This document shows positions 4,081 to 42,829 of a stretch of DNA of 42,829 nt, piece by piece (position 1 is the stretch's first letter; every line of letters starts with the position of its first letter). The translations under genes were made by a program, and so were the position numbers. The stretch is from a virus: IMG/VR virus record IMGVR_UViG_3300037316_000010, positions 1-42,829 of that record. The stretch is one strand, 5' to 3'. The notes beneath the pieces are model-generated. The model worked only from the letters and a program-made list of their open reading frames with translations. It was not told the origin of the DNA and ran no database searches.

Positions 4081-4598
4081 TGGAAAACGACGTGAAATTA
4101 GAGTGGCGAGAGAACGAGGACGGCTGCTGGGAATACGGAGCCGTGGTCGATTACGGCGAGTTCGAGTCGCACCTTGGCATTGAACTCGTCACGCTGCTAG
4201 AAGGCACTGTCGGTCAACATGAGGGCTGGTGCGTGACCCACGACCACGAGAATGACGGATGGTTCGGTCCGTTGTACGCGACTCGTGAAGAAGCGATGGA
4301 GGCGTGCGTCCGCGTTCACGACGCGCTTTACCCACAATTCATCGCATCCCTCCGCGCTCGCCCCCAAGAGCCGGGAGAGAAGGAGAACTTCCACACGTTG
4401 CGAGTGAGCGTGGAGAACGATTGGCTGCGGACGAAGTTCACTTGCGCCGCAGTCGGCACAAATCCACAAAACCTCGCTCATTGGATATCGAGAACCGACT
4501 GCCAGGATTCGTCTTGCGCGTCTCGCTGGTCATTCTCACGCATGGCCACCAGACACACGTGTACGGCCTTCCCGAGCCCGGCACCGAGTGTCATGTAG
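4068..4598 (+). CDS. Hypothetical protein running into the convergent operon
   Basis: 176 residues from the 41-bp cassette. The first ~105 residues look like a genuine small domain (GCWEYGAVVDYGEFES, EGWCVTHDHENDGWFGPLYA, then EEAMEACVRVHDALYP). The last ~70 residues are low-quality sequence (Ser/Cys/Arg rich, ending FPSPAPSVM) that lies antisense to leftward ORFs at 4478-4609 and 4197-4481. The real gene probably lost its original 3' end at a recombination joint near 4400-4480 and now reads through foreign DNA to the next stop. Function unknown. Confidence 0.55.
   Translation: MSEELENDVKLEWRENEDGCWEYGAVVDYGEFESHLGIELVTLLEGTVGQHEGWCVTHDHENDGWFGPLYATREEAMEACVRVHDALYPQFIASLRARPQEPGEKENFHTLRVSVENDWLRTKFTCAAVGTNPQNLAHWISRTDCQDSSCASRWSFSRMATRHTCTAFPSPAPSVM
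4197..4481 (-). CDS. Possible zinc-motif ORF antisense to 4068-4598
   Basis: 94 residues, starting MSEVLWICADCGASELRPQ with a CxxC pair (C8, C11), coupled by ATGA to the leftward ORF upstream. The N-terminal ~40 residues look plausible. The remainder is antisense to the well-formed part of the rightward gene and is probably read-through. Either the leftward operon was truncated here or the start is fortuitous. Confidence 0.3.
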   Translation of the reverse strand: MSEVLWICADCGASELRPQPIVLHAHSQRVEVLLLSRLLGASAEGCDELWVKRVVNADARLHRFFTSRVQRTEPSVILVVVGHAPALMLTDSAF

Positions 4599-6206: not shown

Positions 6207-6299
6207 ACATATTATGGGCGTTCTTATCTCTACGCTCATCAGGTATTACGAATCAGCGCATCAATTGTGGCTGATCGTCGTGTGGTGAATCGCTGAACC

Positions 6300-6339
6300 G
6301 GGTATGTACCCAGACGGGTCGAGTCAGATAGTAACTATC
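6300..6339. promoter_or_regulatory. Further palindromes downstream of the promoter
   Basis: GGGTATGTACCC (6300-6311) and GATAGTAACTATC (6327-6339) are both perfect inverted repeats. The whole 6043-6406 interval holds no gene I can support and is unusually rich in palindromes and A/T. Confidence 0.5.
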
Positions 6340-6406
6340 CCACTCACACGCAAAGCCCATTCCGTCAGTGCTTTACAACCCCGTGAAACATCCGTAGGAT
6401 GACCCT

Positions 6407-6505
6407 ATGTTTCACGTGAAACGTTATCCTGACGAAGCACGTCTGCGGTTCTTCTTGGTGGGGCTTCTAATCGGCTCTGTACTGGGGCTGCTAGCCATTC
6501 TATGA
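6407..6505 (+). CDS. Short single-pass membrane protein
   Basis: 32 residues: a basic N-terminus (MFHVKRYPDEARLRFF) and a hydrophobic segment (LVGLLIGSVLGLLAIL). The stop overlaps the HNH gene start (ATGA). No good Shine-Dalgarno is visible. The first six codons coincide with the parS site, so this ORF could be partly fortuitous. Confidence 0.45.
   Translation: MFHVKRYPDEARLRFFLVGLLIGSVLGLLAIL
6408..6423. promoter_or_regulatory. parS: parS-like ParB-binding site
   Basis: TGTTTCACGTGAAACG matches the bacterial chromosomal parS consensus TGTTTCACGTGAAACA at 15 of 16 positions and contains the full 14-bp palindrome GTTTCACGTGAAAC. An inverted half site, CGTGAAACATCC, lies just upstream (around 6382-6393). 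No parA or parB gene is seen in the window, so a host ParB would be the expected ligand. The site overlaps the first codons of the small ORF at 6407. Confidence 0.75.
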
Positions 6506-11495: not shown

Positions 11496-14400
11496 CCAAC
11501 ACGCTTGATACCACTACGACAACAGCGCCGGTCGGTGGGCTCGTCGCTCCGTCATTAGGTGATTCGGTGAGTGCCGTTACCACCACCGCGCCCGAACTGA
11601 CCCAGTCCCCGGGACTAGTCGTAGGTCTGGCGACTTCCGGTGGCGATACGGTCGGACGTTCCCAAGCCGTAGCCCGAGGGGTAAGTGCTATCTCCGCGTC
11701 CAACGCGCACAACACCGTCGCCGCTGCGGTAGGCGGAAGTAACGAACTCGACAGCGCGCTGAGTTGGTTCGGGAATCACGCCGCCCAAGTCGGAAGTGAC
11801 GTACTCGGAGCCGCGAAGACCGTGGGTTCCGATGCCATGAAAGTCCTTAACGCTCCGTTGGCCCAGGTGCAACACGAGTACCGCTATCTCCATGACGTAG
11901 AAGCCCTCCACGGCATGGGTGCCGCGGTATTCGAAGGTTTAGGTCTCGCTCTAGGCGCCGCCGGAGGCGTTGCGTTGACCGGCTCTCTCTACGGAGGTGA
12001 ACTTGGGGCCGAAGTCGCCGGAGGTATCGAAGGTCAGGTCTTCTACAAGGACTCGTGGCAGAGAACCGCGTCCAGTTCCTACGTCGATCCCCACAATCAC
12101 GACCAAGTAAGCCTGGGAAGAGACATCGTCAACTTCCTCGATACCCACGGGGTGAACCTCCAGCAAGGCACCGTTCCGTACCGTCTCACTTCCGGGATAA
12201 TCGACGGACTCTTCAACCTCAACACCGGGGGGACGGAGTTACTAGGTCTGACCAAGGAGGCGCGTTCCGCTACGGGCTTAGGCGGAATCTTAAACGCCAA
12301 GTGGGGTGGGACGATGCCCCAGACCGTCGGGGACGCGGTGAACGGAGTTGGCGTTATCGACCCTTCCGAGATTGACCGGATCACCTCTCAGTACTCCGGG
12401 GTGCGAAGGGCGTTCCAGGACATCGCCGACAAGACGCCCGAAGAGATCATCTCCACGCCGTACTTGCAGCCCTTTCGACAAATCGCCCAGCAACTCGGAG
12501 ACGCCCACACCATTGACGAAGTGGGCCAAGTCTTCAAGGGCGTACTTAGAACTCAGGAACTCGCTTTCACCGACCGCATCCCTTCGTTGTCGTGGACGCG
12601 ACAGACATTCGGGCAAGCGTTACGCCAGCAGGTCGAGAGCATGACGCCTAGCGAAGTTGATAGAGCGGGAATTCATCCCTTGCAACGTGCCGCGTCGCTT
12701 CTCAACCCCGCGAACATGGCGCAACGACTCAGCCCTTTGCCAACTGCCTACGACGACGCCCTTCACGCACTCACGCTGGAATCGTTCAACCCCGCGTCCA
12801 AAGTTGATGACGGGACCGTCGGGATACGCAACATGCTTCGCTTCACTGAAGACGCCCCCACCGCTGCTTCGACCGCCTGGGCCTATCACAACATGGCCGA
12901 CCTCGGACAGAAGGTGCTCGCCTACCGAAACATCTCGCTCAACACCCTCTTCGCGATGGGTGATATGCGCGGGTACATGGGCTCAGACCTCACGAAGGCG
13001 CCGGACGTTACCCGGTGGCTCCGTGACGCGTTTTCAAACCCCGAGGACCAAAAGGCCATGAAGGACGCCATCGACAATGCCATCGGCGGGGGGATGTTCG
13101 GCAAGGAAGCCTGGTACGGAGTCGATGACGCCGGACGCAATCTTTCGAGTGTACGAGCGTCACAGGGTGACGCCCAGTTCGGTGCGGGTATCTGGAAGAA
13201 CCAGACCGGCAGGTTGGCGTTCTTGGACTTAGGGGCTGCTAGACGGGCCGGGGCCCAGATGGCCGGGGCGAGAGACGTGATCGGACGACTTGATGATTTC
13301 GGGTATCACGCCATCACCCAAGGAATCTTCAAGCCCCTCGTTCTTCTCACGCCCTCCTACGCCATGCACATCGCTCTCGCCGAAGACATCCCGAACACGT
13401 TGCGCGAGGGAATCGGCGCATTGGTGAAATCCAAGATTGCCGGGAACGTCGCGATGCTCGGACGACGTATCGGAGAGACCGAAGCGATGGATGCCGAGAA
13501 GTCCAAGGCCATCTCCGCTCTGGCCTACGACATGGTCACTAGAGGGATGGACAAGGCACCGACCACACTTAGCGCAGACCTGCAACGTCGAATCGAGAAC
13601 GCCGCTGTCTACCTCGAAGCGACCGGAGGAGAAGCGGTGGCTCCCGGTGCGGCCTCCATGCACGCGTATCAAGCCGAAGTCGGCGGTGAGGAACGCGCCA
13701 CGAATCTTCTGCGTCGCCACTATTTCGACTCACCGATGCGCAAGTCTGAGGACTTCGGCGTGCTCGGACCGACCGACGAACAGGCCGTCCCCGCGTGGCA
13801 AGCATCCATCAAAGAGATCGCCAACGACGAAAGCGGACAGTTGGCCGCGAGAGAACTCATCGCCGGAGCGAGGCGCGGTGAGAACATCGAGACCGCCAGC
13901 GGGAACGCGAGTCGCGTCGTCGCCCAGTATCTTCGCGAGCACCCAAGCGAAACCGACTGGTCCATCCGTCCGAACTCTGGTGTCACCGCCGCTGTGCCGG
14001 GGTTCACCAAGCCTGCGGAGTGGGACAACTACGACGAGTTCGCCCACGTCAAGGTCCAAGCGTTGCGCGGTGTGGTGAGGGGGGGGGACAAGAGCGTCAA
14101 TGCCGGAATCCTCGCGCACATCGCGGACGGTACTACGCCTAGCAGGATGGAACTTGCCGCCATACCCGCCGAGTCTCGGCCACTTCTCATCAAGGGCCGC
14201 CAGATGATCCCCGACGGGACCGGGACGGTGCAACGAATCGCCAACGTCGGATTCCGTAAGGTATTGAACCCGATGGTCAACTTTCTCTCTCGCCAGCACA
14301 TCGCTCTGAACGAATGGGATCGCCAGTGGGAACTGCAAAAGCCCCTCGTCGCCGCAGGCATCAAGGACTACGACGAGGCGGTCAATACCGCATTGGACCG

Positions 14401-20563: not shown

Positions 20564-20663
20564 CAAGACCGAAGGTCGCGCTAGGGCAAGCGAAGCGCGG
20601 CAGGATTTGTCGTTCTTCGCTCCGAAGCCGGACCGAAAAATCCTTACCGTAATCGAAGTTCCC

Positions 20664-20751
20664 TGTGGATAACCAGTAGTAAAACCTGTTGATTTCTTGT
20701 GGATAACTTCTGAAGAGCCTGTGGATAACCCTGTGCATAACTTGTGGATAA
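20664..20751. other. DnaA-box cluster, putative replication origin
   Basis: Five DnaA boxes in the same orientation: TGTGGATAA at 20664, 20698, 20720 and 20743 and TGTGCATAA at 20732 (complements of TTATCCACA and TTATGCACA). Start-to-start spacings are 34, 22, 12 and 11 bp. They lie in the 392-bp non-coding gap 20564-20955. Bacterial chromosomal and many plasmid origins use such arrays to load DnaA. The phage encodes no DnaA or helicase that I can see, so host initiation is inferred. Confidence 0.8.
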
Positions 20752-20759
20752 CTAGGTGC

Positions 20760-20789
20760 TTGACAAGATGACATTGATGTGATTAGATT
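20760..20789 (+). promoter_or_regulatory. Promoter for the capsid operon
   Basis: TTGACA (20760-20765), 18-base spacer, TAGATT (20784-20789). It lies 9 bp after the last DnaA box and ~165 bp before the scaffold gene. DnaA binding could influence this promoter. The leader 20790-20955 contains no gene I can support and ends in AAAAGGAGAAAG. Confidence 0.5.
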
Positions 20790-20955
20790 CCACTTGTTGC
20801 TGCGGAGTGTGTAGATCGCCTCCAAGTGTGACCCAAACGCCGTTCGAGACTCGCGCTTTACCGAACGAGAGCCGTTGCGCGACAGCCGTGTACTGCCTTC
20901 ACGAGCCAATTCTTGGAAGCCGCTACTCCACGCGTGCACCTAAAAGGAGAAAGAA

Positions 20956-21441
20956 ATGCCAGAAGACGTTGAAGTGCTATCACCCGAAGAGTTGCAGTTG
21001 CCGAATGAAATCCAGGCGCAACTCCGCATCGGTCGCAAGGCCGCCAAGGAGACTGAGGCTTTACAGGCTCAGATAAAGCAGATGGAGAAGCAGTCGGCAA
21101 TCGAACGCGCCGGGGTTCCAGAGCACCCAGCCCGAGAAGTTGTCTTCGCGAACTACGACGGTCCACTGGACGGCGATTCCATCAGGGAACACGCATCCAA
21201 GATGGGGATCATCGCCGCGCCAGCCCCAGAGGGGGCCAGTGTGCAAGAACAGTCCGCGATGCGACAGGTTCTCCAAGCCGGGGGCGGAGCGCCACCGCAG
21301 AGTAACGACATCGACCTCGCAGTCGCCTTACGAAACGCCAAGTCTTCCGCAGAAGTCATGGCGATAGTCAAGGAAGTGTCGGGGAATCCGGGTTTTAGGT
21401 CACGAGACGGTCTGATTGGAGAACTACCACCCCCGATTTGA
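20956..21441 (+). CDS. Putative scaffold protein
   Basis: 161 residues with a strong Shine-Dalgarno (AAAAGGAGAAAGAA). Acidic, with a helical coiled-coil stretch (QLRIGRKAAKETEALQAQIK, residues ~21-50), and directly upstream of the major capsid gene. This is the usual position and style of a scaffold or assembly chaperone. The C-terminal part is less helical. Function inferred from context. Confidence 0.6.
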   Translation: MPEDVEVLSPEELQLPNEIQAQLRIGRKAAKETEALQAQIKQMEKQSAIERAGVPEHPAREVVFANYDGPLDGDSIREHASKMGIIAAPAPEGASVQEQSAMRQVLQAGGGAPPQSNDIDLAVALRNAKSSAEVMAIVKEVSGNPGFRSRDGLIGELPPPI

Positions 21442-21459: not shown

Positions 21460-22470
21460 ATGGCCTATACCACCACCGGGACAGTTGACTACGTACAGAC
21501 CGCGTACGACATGCTGGCCTACTACGCCCTGCGACCGGAGTTGTACTTCGACCAAGTGGCGGACATCAAGCCCACCAACCAGTCGATGGCCGGGTCTTCA
21601 GTCGTTTTCAACATCCAAAACGACCTCGCTCTGGCGACGACAAGCCTTAACGAATCGACCGACATCACCCCGGTGGCCCTGACTTCTTCGCAAGTCACCT
21701 TGACCCTCTTAGAGTACGGTGGTGGCACCATCACCACCGCTCAAGTGCGCGCCGAGTCCTTCGTCTCCATTGACGAAATCCAAGCCAACGCCGTGGGTTA
21801 CTGGGCCGGTCGAACCGTCGATGAGTTGGCCAAGATTCAACTCCAAGGCGGAACGAACGTCACCTACTCAGCCGGTCCCGGTGTCACCGCAGGTACGGCG
21901 GGTCAACCGCCGACCGCGCGCAACCAGATCACTCCTTCGGACACCATTCGCGCCTACGACATCCGCTACAACGTGGCGGCCTTGAAGCGCAACAACGTCC
22001 CCGGATACGGTGGGTACTACCTGTGCTTCATCCACCCGGACGTGGCCTTCGACCTCTGGCAGGAATCAGGCAACCAGGCCCTCATCGCCCCGCACATCTA
22101 CTCTGCTCCCGAGGAAGTCTTCAAGGGAGAGATTGGTTCCTTCGCGGGCGCGAGGTTCATCGAGACCCCGACGGCTCCGCTGTTCGCCGACGCCGGTTCT
22201 TCGACCACCGACACCGACGTCTACGGCACGCTGTTCCTCGGTCGCCAAGCCCTGGCTAAGGTCTGGGCCATGAAGGACGGCAACGGTCCACACCCGGTAC
22301 TGGTGATGGGTCCGATCACTGACTACCTGCGTCGTTTCCAGCCGCTTGGGTTCAAGTGGATGGGCGCCTACGGCGTGTTCCGTTCCGCTTCCATCTGGCG
22401 CCAAGAGTCATGTTCGAGCATCGGTTCCAACACCGTCGCTGGAACTGACACCCCGGCAGAGGACCTTTAA
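21460..22470 (+). CDS. Major capsid protein (N4-gp56 family-like)
   Basis: 336 residues, Shine-Dalgarno AGGAGG. It has an HK97-fold-like arrangement. Sequence features such as VAFDLWQESGNQALIAPHIY, EEVFKGEIGSFAGARFIETP and the TLFLGRQALAKVW segment match what I recall of the N4-gp56 family of capsid proteins. Several hundred copies would form the shell. It is followed by a strong hairpin (22480-22502) that could raise its expression relative to downstream genes. Confidence 0.85.
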   Translation: MAYTTTGTVDYVQTAYDMLAYYALRPELYFDQVADIKPTNQSMAGSSVVFNIQNDLALATTSLNESTDITPVALTSSQVTLTLLEYGGGTITTAQVRAESFVSIDEIQANAVGYWAGRTVDELAKIQLQGGTNVTYSAGPGVTAGTAGQPPTARNQITPSDTIRAYDIRYNVAALKRNNVPGYGGYYLCFIHPDVAFDLWQESGNQALIAPHIYSAPEEVFKGEIGSFAGARFIETPTAPLFADAGSSTTDTDVYGTLFLGRQALAKVWAMKDGNGPHPVLVMGPITDYLRRFQPLGFKWMGAYGVFRSASIWRQESCSSIGSNTVAGTDTPAEDL

Positions 22471-36025: not shown

Positions 36026-36388
36026 ATGAGCAACGTCGTAACGCCAGCCCCAGCCTCGAACGCTTTCAAGGCCATAGTCCGTAGCCTGATGCCCTTCGTA
36101 GAATCAGGCGCAGCGGCCCTAATCGCTCGACTGGGCTATCACGTCAGTCTGACCACGACCATCGCCATTCTGGGCATCGTAGGGGGCGCTCTGACCATCC
36201 TGCTCCATGCTCTGGAAACACAGTGGCCTGCTATCGGCGTCTTCTTGGGATACCTCGGCGCTCCGGTCTACGCACCTTCCACCAAGATTTCACAGAAGTC
36301 GGCGATTGCCACGCTGGAGGCGCAGGTCGCCGCGCTGACCGCTCAACTGGACGAGAAAGCCACCCCTTCTCCGGTCGTCGCTCCGTGA
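36026..36388 (+). CDS. Holin-like membrane protein
   Basis: 120 residues, strong Shine-Dalgarno (AAAGGAG). One clear membrane segment (TTIAILGIVGGALTILLHAL, residues ~44-66), a second hydrophobic stretch (GVFLGYLGAPVYA) and a polar C-terminal coil (SAIATLEAQVAALTAQLDEK). Directly upstream of and overlapping the endolysin gene (GTGA). Probably releases the lysin. Confidence 0.65.
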   Translation: MSNVVTPAPASNAFKAIVRSLMPFVESGAAALIARLGYHVSLTTTIAILGIVGGALTILLHALETQWPAIGVFLGYLGAPVYAPSTKISQKSAIATLEAQVAALTAQLDEKATPSPVVAP

Positions 36389-37662
36389 TTCTCAAAGATG
36401 CTCGCAACGCCATAGCCCACTGTGGGATATGGCTGAGCGAGCACAAGGCCGGGGACGTCTACTCCGAGGGTTCTCAGAGGATGTCGGCCATCGGTCGCAG
36501 ATTTGTCGTGCCCATTGTTTCGGACTGCTCGGCCTTTGTCACTGTTTGCTACAACTGGGCCGGAGCGCCAGACCCAAATCATCTTCACTACGATCATGAG
36601 GGCTACTGTTTCACCCCAGAAACACGCATTCTTAGAGACGATTTGCGATGGGTGCCTTCCGGTGAACTATCAGTGGGCGATGGACTCTGGGCCTTTGAGG
36701 AGACGGCACGCGGACGCAGACGTACACTTGAGCGCGCGACGGTCACCGCCTCGTTCCTTTCGAGGAAAGAGTGCGTGAGAGTGACGATGCAATCAGGCGA
36801 GTCCTTCGTCTGTTCGGATGACCACCCGTGGCTATCCTCGCGAGGCACCGGATCAGGGGTCAGTTACCACGAGTGGGTCCCGGCGCGTGACCTTATGAGC
36901 CGCCCATCGCCAGTGCGAGCATTCATGCCGTGGGAAGAGGACCGTTCCTATGACGCCGGGTGGCTAGCCGGGATGTTTGATGGTGAGGGATGGGTGGTAC
37001 GCCACGGGATAAGAGACTTCCACCCTAGCGCGGTTGGGATTACCCAGGTTCTAGGAGCGACGGCTAATCGACTGGAGCGCGCAGTGAGGGAACGCGGAGA
37101 CTTTAACGTGCGCCTCGTAGAGCGTCCCGAGATTCAAAAGCGTCTGGACATGGTCAGTCGCGGGGGCATTTCCTCGGCGGCTGAGTTCCTCGGTCTCGTG
37201 CGAGCCGAACGTCTAATCGAGAATCTTGACCTCGCTGGATGCGAACTGCGCCGAGCGCACTCGGCCAAGATAGTTTCGGTTGAGCCAGTTGGGGAAGCCG
37301 AAGTTCAAAGCATTCAGACCACCTCCGGGACCTACTTCGCTGAGGGATTTGCAGTACACAACACCGGAACCCTTCTCTCAGCCGGAGAACACCTAGCTCT
37401 GTTTAGAATCAACGGACGCGGCATGACCTACGAAGAGGTCGAGCCGGGGGATGTCGTTGTGTTCGGTCCAGGGACCGGAGTCCACACCGCCTTAGTAGTT
37501 TCCAAGGGCAACGGTGACCCGGTCTGCATCTCCATGGGGAGACAGGGCGACCCTTCGATTGTCACCGTGTCACAGATGGCGTCACTCGGGGAGCAAACCT
37601 ATCTAAGATTCAATACCATGACCAGGAAAGTTCACTACCCGCCCGGCCACAAGAAGCTGTAG
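36385..37662 (+). CDS. NlpC/P60-type endolysin precursor interrupted by an intein
   Basis: 425 residues from GTG 36385, overlapping the holin stop (GTGA); an upstream in-frame ATG at 36223 only gives antisense-like sequence in the holin gene. The N-extein (1-74) carries SDCSAFVT with the catalytic Cys48; the C-extein (327-425) carries GDVVVF and GVHTALVV with His367. Together they form a 173-residue NlpC/P60-like peptidoglycan peptidase. Residues 75-326 are an intein. Activity should depend on splicing, as Cys and His lie on opposite sides of the insert. Expected role: host lysis. Confidence 0.85.
   Translation: MILKDARNAIAHCGIWLSEHKAGDVYSEGSQRMSAIGRRFVVPIVSDCSAFVTVCYNWAGAPDPNHLHYDHEGYCFTPETRILRDDLRWVPSGELSVGDGLWAFEETARGRRRTLERATVTASFLSRKECVRVTMQSGESFVCSDDHPWLSSRGTGSGVSYHEWVPARDLMSRPSPVRAFMPWEEDRSYDAGWLAGMFDGEGWVVRHGIRDFHPSAVGITQVLGATANRLERAVRERGDFNVRLVERPEIQKRLDMVSRGGISSAAEFLGLVRAERLIENLDLAGCELRRAHSAKIVSVEPVGEAEVQSIQTTSGTYFAEGFAVHNTGTLLSAGEHLALFRINGRGMTYEEVEPGDVVVFGPGTGVHTALVVSKGNGDPVCISMGRQGDPSIVTVSQMASLGEQTYLRFNTMTRKVHYPPGHKKL
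36607..37362 (+). mobile_element. Intein with single-motif LAGLIDADG domain
   Basis: 252 residues. Block A: CFTPETRI with Cys1. Block B: FVCSDDHPWLS with the His. Endonuclease: AGWLAGMFDGEGWV, one LAGLIDADG motif in a short ~110-residue domain. Block F/G: QTTSGTYFAEGFAVHN, ending His-Asn; the +1 extein residue is Thr. All splicing residues look intact. The endonuclease has only one motif, so it would need to dimerise, or is degenerate. Confidence 0.9.
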
Positions 37663-39698: not shown

Positions 39699-40347
39699 CG
39701 CCAACGTCACCGGGGGGATTCGGAACTTCGGTGAACTGGGTAACGACGTGGACGGGGACTGCGTCTGCGCTGGAACCGAGCACAACGTGGACTGCAAAGG
39801 CACGACGTTAGCCAGTAGGTGGCGCAAGATTAAGTACCTCTTAGGGTTCAAACCTCCGTCCAGCGTCTACACCGTCGAGTTGTACACCGAGTTCCTAGCG
39901 ACGTTAGGTGAAAAGCCCGGGCCCGACATGGGTATCTACTGCTCCCAGTGGTTCCCGTGGCTCAAGGCCAAGGGTCTTATCGTCGATTGGGGGATGGTCA
40001 AAGGTGATCTGCGACAGGCGATGATTGACTACCGGGGGATAGTGCTGACGTTGGAACTCACCCAGAACGCTTGGCAGTACTTCCCTTCCGGCAAGCCGTG
40101 GGATGTCGGGCCTAACCCCAACGACCAACCCAGTCCTTCCCTCGGGCACGCGGTGATGCTCTGTGAGTACACCCCCGATTTGCTTACGGTTGTCACCTGG
40201 GGAGCGTTGCAATCCATGACCTACGACTTCTGGACGACCTGCGGCCAAGGGGCCTACGTCTTCGTCTCGCCCGAGGATAAGAAACGCCTGAACGCCAGTG
40301 ATTATCAGGCGTTGGTGACCAAGACGGCGGCACTGCCGAAAGCCTGA
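39670..40347 (+). CDS. Papain/C39-like Cys-His protein, cytoplasmic or virion
   Basis: 225 residues from GTG 39670, overlapping the previous gene by 29 bases. DGDCVCAGTEHN (C31/C33) and SLGHAVMLCEY (H160) with a following VVTWG segment give a papain-like Cys-His-polar layout. There is no signal peptide, unlike the related-looking secreted protein at 3019. Related domains occur in phage proteins of unknown specificity. Possibly a peptidase or amidase. Confidence 0.6.
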   Translation: MTPTVALPSSANVTGGIRNFGELGNDVDGDCVCAGTEHNVDCKGTTLASRWRKIKYLLGFKPPSSVYTVELYTEFLATLGEKPGPDMGIYCSQWFPWLKAKGLIVDWGMVKGDLRQAMIDYRGIVLTLELTQNAWQYFPSGKPWDVGPNPNDQPSPSLGHAVMLCEYTPDLLTVVTWGALQSMTYDFWTTCGQGAYVFVSPEDKKRLNASDYQALVTKTAALPKA

Positions 40348-41523: not shown

Positions 41524-41560
41524 CCTACACTGCTGTCTATACCTAGTGGAAGGAAATGAA

Positions 41561-42160
41561 ATGCCAGAGTTCAAACGAAACATGGACTACGTAGATGTCG
41601 CGGCAAGGCTCGAAGAGATGCGTAAGCGTTTCCCCGACCTCACCATGAGCCAAGTCAAGATGGAGTTCGTCTACGTCGCGGACAAGGACTGGGTGGTCTA
41701 CACCGCCGCCGCCTACCGCACACCAGATGACATCCAGCCAGGCATAGGAACGGCCTGGGAGCCGATTCCGGGCCCTACGTCCTTCACCAAGGACTCTGAG
41801 GTGCAGAACGCCGAAACAGCCGCCTGGGGGCGCGCCCTGATCGCTATCGGAGCGAGTACCAAGAACGGCATCGCCAGCCACGAAGAGGTCACGAACCGTC
41901 AAGGGCCGCGAGAATCATCGGGGCCAGAGAATGCTCAGAGAGGCACCCAAACCCTCCAATCCGAGCAGCAAGAAGGGGATGCCTACACCCACGGAGACGG
42001 CAACTCAGATTTCGACATCATCCTTGAAGCCGCCGTCCTCGATTCCGCCAACGACTTCATGCAATCCCTGGCCTCTCAGATTCGGGTGAAGGAGACTCTC
42101 ACGGACAAGCAGATTGCCAGCGGCGTCCCGAAAGCCTACAAAATCGTGCACGGCGGATGA
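41561..42160 (+). CDS. Erf/Rad52-like or RecT-like annealing-protein family member
   Basis: 199 residues from ATG 41561 (AAGGAA before it). The motif series MDYVDVAARLEEMRKRFPD, VYTAAAYRTPDD, GTAWEPIPGPTSFTKDSEVQ, AETAAWGRALIAIG is a common actinophage family that I recall being linked to ssDNA binding or annealing. The C-terminal ~90 residues are acidic and Gln-rich. Position after gam supports a recombination role. The exact family name is uncertain. Confidence 0.65.
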   Translation: MPEFKRNMDYVDVAARLEEMRKRFPDLTMSQVKMEFVYVADKDWVVYTAAAYRTPDDIQPGIGTAWEPIPGPTSFTKDSEVQNAETAAWGRALIAIGASTKNGIASHEEVTNRQGPRESSGPENAQRGTQTLQSEQQEGDAYTHGDGNSDFDIILEAAVLDSANDFMQSLASQIRVKETLTDKQIASGVPKAYKIVHGG

Positions 42161-42730: not shown

Positions 42731-42829
42731 TGACTGAGCTCTACAAGTGGCTGACGGCCGACCGCCGAAGCCCGACCCAGAGGTTCCACTGGCCCGAGGA
42801 GGACGCTCTCTGGACGCCGAACGTGAAGC
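42730..42829 (+). CDS. Start of DUF7666-like gene (3' partial)
   Basis: Begins [20 protein letters not shown] and runs off the window; the sequence from 42746 equals base 1 onward. If the genome is circular this is the missing 5' end of the gene at 3-740, giving one ~251-residue protein. Confidence 0.8.
   Translation, partial: MTELYKWLTADRRSPTQRFHWPEEDALWTPNVK

Follow-up and report, generated by a model that had tools for sequence, protein, structure and literature searches.

The DNA analysed here (the window) is a podovirus-like virus contig of 42,829 bp. According to the ORF list, the largest gap in its late region spans 392 bp (positions 20564–20955), with a virion gene upstream and a scaffold-like gene downstream (20956–21441, plus strand; phrog_7813, E=3.8e-12), the latter preceding the gene for the major capsid protein (21460–22470, plus strand; phrog_1357, E=2e-62). 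The late promoter driving the scaffold-like gene lies within the gap on the plus strand at 20760–20789 (TTGACA-18-TAGATT, 10/12 in the promoter scan, or TGA-TTAGAT with a 17-bp spacer), and the promoter-like sequence is kept in about 20 relatives. Between this promoter and the stop codon that closes the upstream virion gene is a lineage-specific insert of ~190 bp (20564–20752), which ends in an array of DnaA boxes. In several relatives, the stop codon (TAG) of the upstream gene directly abuts GGTGCTTGACA with no insert, and other relatives carry different inserts at the same gap. No intrinsic terminator was detected before the array at the threshold of the tool. The gap is an insertion-prone boundary between two late transcription units, rather than the middle of a structural operon, in which the original prediction had placed the array.

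The array consists of five boxes, all matching TTATNCACA and arranged head to tail on the minus strand within 88 bp (20664–20751). Box 1 (20664–20672), an exact consensus match, and boxes 2 (20698–20706), 3 (20720–20728), and 5 (20743–20751) read TTATCCACA, and box 4 (20732–20740) reads TTATGCACA; all five match TTWTNCACA. Five consensus or near-consensus boxes in one orientation, in the largest late-region gap and beside a promoter, had been predicted, and each of these points was confirmed, with box starts at exactly 20664, 20698, 20720, 20732, and 20743. The spacing of the boxes is 34/22/12, the right end being built of 12/11-bp steps, and one 22-bp unit composed of a box and a spacer (20698–20719) can be delimited by pairwise alignment with a relative that lacks it (L002, see below). 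Beyond these five, TTWTNCACA has no match in the 42.8 kb; because shuffled versions of the window contain 0.99 matches on average per whole 42.8 kb, five boxes in 88 bp are far beyond chance. In AT content, the array and the promoter fall within the highest 0.4% of windows in the genome.

A run resembling the DnaA-trios of bacterial origins (GTT TTA CTA CTG GTT ATC; 20668–20685, minus strand) follows box 2 after a 12-bp spacer on the TTATCCACA strand, and its last triplets enter box 1. Runs were searched for within 16 bp past a box and in the correct orientation (PMC8287927), the orientation being verified on Meiothermus and Halonatronum arrays, which carry CTA repeats on the same side. The run scores 10, corresponding to six NTN triplets (p=0.0036 when the non-box letters were shuffled), and is weaker than the best chromosomal runs. 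Under one span rule, scores of at least 10 were obtained for 17 of 42 chromosomal arrays vs 1 of 80 other viral arrays, a comparison that is affected by the higher mean number of boxes in chromosomal arrays (8.2 vs 4.6) and was made post hoc, after the sequence had been noticed; for these two reasons the trio result is taken as moderate evidence. A possible degenerate second box, AAATCAACA (20687–20695, minus strand), occupies the space separating box 2 from the run, recalling the tandem boxes of the basal unwinding system (BUS) of bacterial origins; it has three mismatches, four being the maximum allowed for degenerate boxes (PMC8287927).

The array thus contains an ordered cluster of consensus boxes with a trio-like run of moderate strength no more than 16 bp past a box, and on the sequence features that can be examined it appears oriC-like. 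On the side of box 1 where unwinding would be expected, the AT content is 30–43% (20570–20629) and the DNA to the left of 20630 is GC-rich. A change of GC skew, which had been proposed as a check, was not found at 20.7 kb: the cumulative skew peaks at 4306 and is lowest at 39711, turning near 4.3 kb and 39.7 kb instead, although skew is a weak origin indicator in this genome, being confounded by one-way transcription. Neither the skew nor conservation of the array at the same place across the phage group supports an origin, and the array is therefore not filed as a proven one. The pattern of three boxes at 12/11-bp steps was also found in 42 genome contigs from scattered phyla, typically where DnaA boxes are densely clustered and often close to a dnaA signature; a single chromosomal donor recognisable by the exact three-box spacing was considered and rejected, as these contigs point to no one source.

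A search with the capsid protein identified 28 related loci (80–99% identity), and among the about 30 genomes and contigs compared, including the window, three carry the array, in two different gaps. The sole relative with the array at the same place is L002 (contig G001). Its sequence from box 1 to the −35 element (a 66-bp core) is 100% identical to that of the window less the one 22-bp unit, box 1 and the trio-like run included, and all 25 non-box spacer positions are identical. Because this identity extends to the non-box spacer, even though the DNA upstream of the core is unalignable and the two genomes share only ~75% DNA identity, more than the boxes is conserved. The third array, in L154, has degenerate boxes spaced 35/22/12 and sits in a different gap, flanked by the genes for the annealing protein and HNH; the module is therefore not bound to a single promoter. 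It is identical to the window at 24 of 38 non-box positions (counted on the alignment by the authors), with a whole-alignment score of 72 against a median of 73 for unrelated arrays; common descent of the two is probable, not proven. No cluster of three or more boxes was found in the other relatives read, including the complete genome G006, and a search of IMG/VR for further carriers returned only the two already known. As for conservation of the box spacing, another proposed check, the spacing recurs in place in L002 less the one 22-bp unit and nearly so elsewhere in L154, and the other relatives read are without the array. In the corresponding Erf-HNH gap of G002 (L236:3380–3490), where L154 has its array, there are different repeats, GAATATAAGAGCGRGATAAGAAC, a possible alternative set of iterons.

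Positions 1–84 of the window are identical to 42746–42829, forming an 84-bp terminal overlap. The first 60 of these 84 bp recur at 1754, within a paralogous Ala-rich gene, so closure requires synteny with G002 as well; G002 has the genes around the junction (annealing protein, HNH, and Ala-rich gene) in the same order. The two paralogous genes concerned (1–740 and 1723–2433) contain Ala-rich repeats, match Imm5_like and DUF7666, and have a long open overlapping frame. From overlap and synteny, the window is treated as an essentially complete genome, and a fragment that has lost its replication module is unlikely. An initiator or polymerase gene with its own origin on a missing part of the genome had been named as a finding that would overturn the predicted origin; the missing part appears negligible, and neither gene is recognisable in the window among the families searched. 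In the relative G006 (44,612 bp), the two ends overlap by 127 bp and are joined by G007 at 100% identity, so that this genome is complete at about 44,485 bp.

The non-structural ORFs of the window and G006 match Gam-like, exonuclease, HNH, and methyltransferase families (PHROGs/Pfam). Both genomes have the unnamed family phrog_23738 where other relatives have an Erf-like annealing protein; the product of 41546–42160 in the window is called an annealing protein because it is syntenic with Erf in G002 and G009, not from a direct family match. No initiator, helicase, primase, or polymerase was found among the matches listed for the non-structural ORFs of either genome (25 of 33 families in one scan), so that, within the families searched, the earlier statement that the window encodes no replication protein is borne out. 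The DnaB_C, ParB_N, and HTH_36 domains are absent from the window. A more distant relative, G009, carries a gene for an O-like/HTH_36 initiator beside its Erf gene (L239:23–481, cut by the contig end), which is absent from both the window and G006. No plasmid Rep or ParA family was present among the matches listed, similarity to plasmids was limited to one weak match (35% coverage), no RNA families or tRNAs were detected in the window, and a search of 84,980 genomes for prophage relatives of the capsid protein, made to find the host, returned none. With its defining genes (ParA/ParB or a plasmid Rep) not found, the suggestion of a phage-plasmid is not supported. A lysin-like gene of the window (36223–37662) seems to be interrupted by an intein (CFTPETRIL ... 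AVHN before TGTLL); its homologue in G006 is uninterrupted and encodes 172 aa.

The parS site noted in the original prediction was recovered as a parS-like 16-mer, TGTTTCACGTGAAACG, at 6408–6423, upstream of the terminase gene and at the same position in G006, G007, G001, and L324. The form TGTTTCACGTGAAAC(A/C/G) occurs upstream of terminase in the window, L237 (7879), L241 (4503), and L324 (1934), and L152 has an exact copy elsewhere, at 12623; no ParB gene was found in the four related genomes with the 16-mer. The 6.06–6.42 kb region also includes the most AT-rich spot of the genome. Three 18-bp repeats, CCTGAGARNATTCT, lie in this most AT-rich part of the genome (6087–6164) and are operator- or iteron-like. 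A non-coding block (GAACCGGGTRTGTNCCCAGACGGG...AGTAACT; 6290–6370) upstream of terminase is shared with G006, G001, and L324, apart from a few differences, and could be a packaging site, a promoter, or an origin. With its AT peak, three repeats, conserved block, and parS, this region is a candidate for a rival origin or partition region.

The reading preferred for the array, tentatively and with somewhat less than even confidence, is that it represents a compact, mobile, accessory oriC-like module that uses host DnaA. In this reading, the five boxes would be bound by host DnaA, which would spread from box 2 along the neighbouring trio-like strand, whereupon the AT-rich array could open; the host helicase and replisome would then be recruited to copy a phage genome that has no recognisable replisome of its own, the origin being used at some point in the phage life cycle. 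Because most relatives do without the array, such a module must be optional or stage-specific, and it is probably a borrowed origin rather than the universal one of the group. An ancestral origin of the whole group was rejected, since the complete G006 is without the array; as G006/G007 has neither array nor recognisable replication genes, the lack of such genes does not require an array. Of the predicted host-DnaA origin, the oriC-like architecture, now including the trio-like run, and the lack of a recognisable replication gene stand; the absence of a skew turn, the array-less relatives including G006, and the O-like initiator of G009 speak against it. A broader proposal, speculative and rather doubtful, is that a lytic-type phage with no recognisable replication genes, a miniature chromosome-style origin (boxes plus trio), and a chromosome-style parS without ParB mimics the oriC region, using the host DnaA replisome and host ParB, and that the module moves between gaps among related phages; the parS-like site is a possible partner of the array in this proposal. 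A literature search found nothing specific on phages that have both DnaA boxes and parS or that use host ParB.

The position of the boxes permits a different role, in which host DnaA activates or represses the scaffold/capsid operon and thereby ties virion output to the DnaA level or the cell cycle. Box 5 lies 8 bp upstream of the −35 element of the promoter kept in relatives, such adjacency of boxes and promoter being expected under DnaA regulation, and the block exactly conserved in L002 spans box 1 to that element. DnaA is known to act as a transcription factor. Use of a host cell-cycle regulator by phages has been shown for CtrA (PMC9437464). However, the same promoter serves relatives that have no boxes, many of them with the stop codon directly at the −35 element, and the L154 array occupies another gap, which together disfavour a promoter-specific role, not decisively; DnaA sites also showed no positional bias in the phages examined in the CtrA study (PMC9437464). 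Promoter control is regarded as a live but rather unlikely rival.

Independence from position is what a DnaA decoy would predict, with high-copy boxes titrating DnaA in the manner of a datA-like site, blocking new initiation on the host chromosome, and freeing replisome and nucleotides. Arrays are indeed sporadic, DnaA-box-like arrays occur in the Berlinviruses P483 and A7 and other phages, and a three-box pattern has matches in at least 120 stretches of IMG/VR. Set against this, the fully identical non-box spacer in L002 would be needless for a pure sink (not a decisive point), the trio-like run is untypical of viral arrays, and five sites per genome are few. A decoy is likewise a live but unlikely rival. 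The conserved core also bears on whether the array is a remnant or recombination-prone repeat, derived from oriC DNA taken from a host or from a repeat cassette and without present function: the insertion-prone gap with its different inserts and the variable copy number of the 22-bp unit fit such a derivation, but the core has remained exact while its flanks have become unalignable, and this explanation is considered quite improbable. If the array is instead an origin, as preferred here, the phage would replicate from the host's own start signal and offer a clean case for the minimum DNA that lets DnaA open a replicon; if the module is exchanged between gaps, it would show how phages swap origins. 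Relatives with and without the array provide natural controls.

The closest counterpart among known systems is the BUS of bacterial oriC, composed of DnaA boxes and DnaA-trios (PMC6669920, PMC8287927). Like it, the array has tandem consensus boxes in the same orientation, with a box, a spacer of at most 16 bp, and NTN triplets on the TTATCCACA strand, and is AT-rich relative to the genome. Unlike it, the array has only five boxes, its trio run falls short of perfect CTA repeats, it shows no extended AT-rich unwinding element past box 1, and its neighbour is a phage late promoter, with no dnaA/dnaN alongside. Arrays resembling DnaA boxes are not rare in phages, including T7-like Berlinviruses: P483 and A7 have tandem TGTGGATAAC repeats at 11–45-bp steps in a non-coding region, but these lack a strong trio-like run (score 0–5). 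T7-like phages encode their own replisome. In phage P1 oriR and similar plasmid or prophage origins, phage-borne DnaA boxes recruit host DnaA, and such origins additionally employ iterons and a Rep protein encoded by the phage; in contrast, no Rep protein was found in the window among the matches listed. For Pseudomonas phage PseuGes_254, an origin was predicted from DnaA boxes by an Ori-Finder-type approach (PMC11512268); this is a prediction only, for a larger, unrelated phage, and it is not known to involve a DnaA-trio. What is unusual in the present phage is the trio-like run, in a genome without recognisable replication genes and with a parS-like site without ParB.
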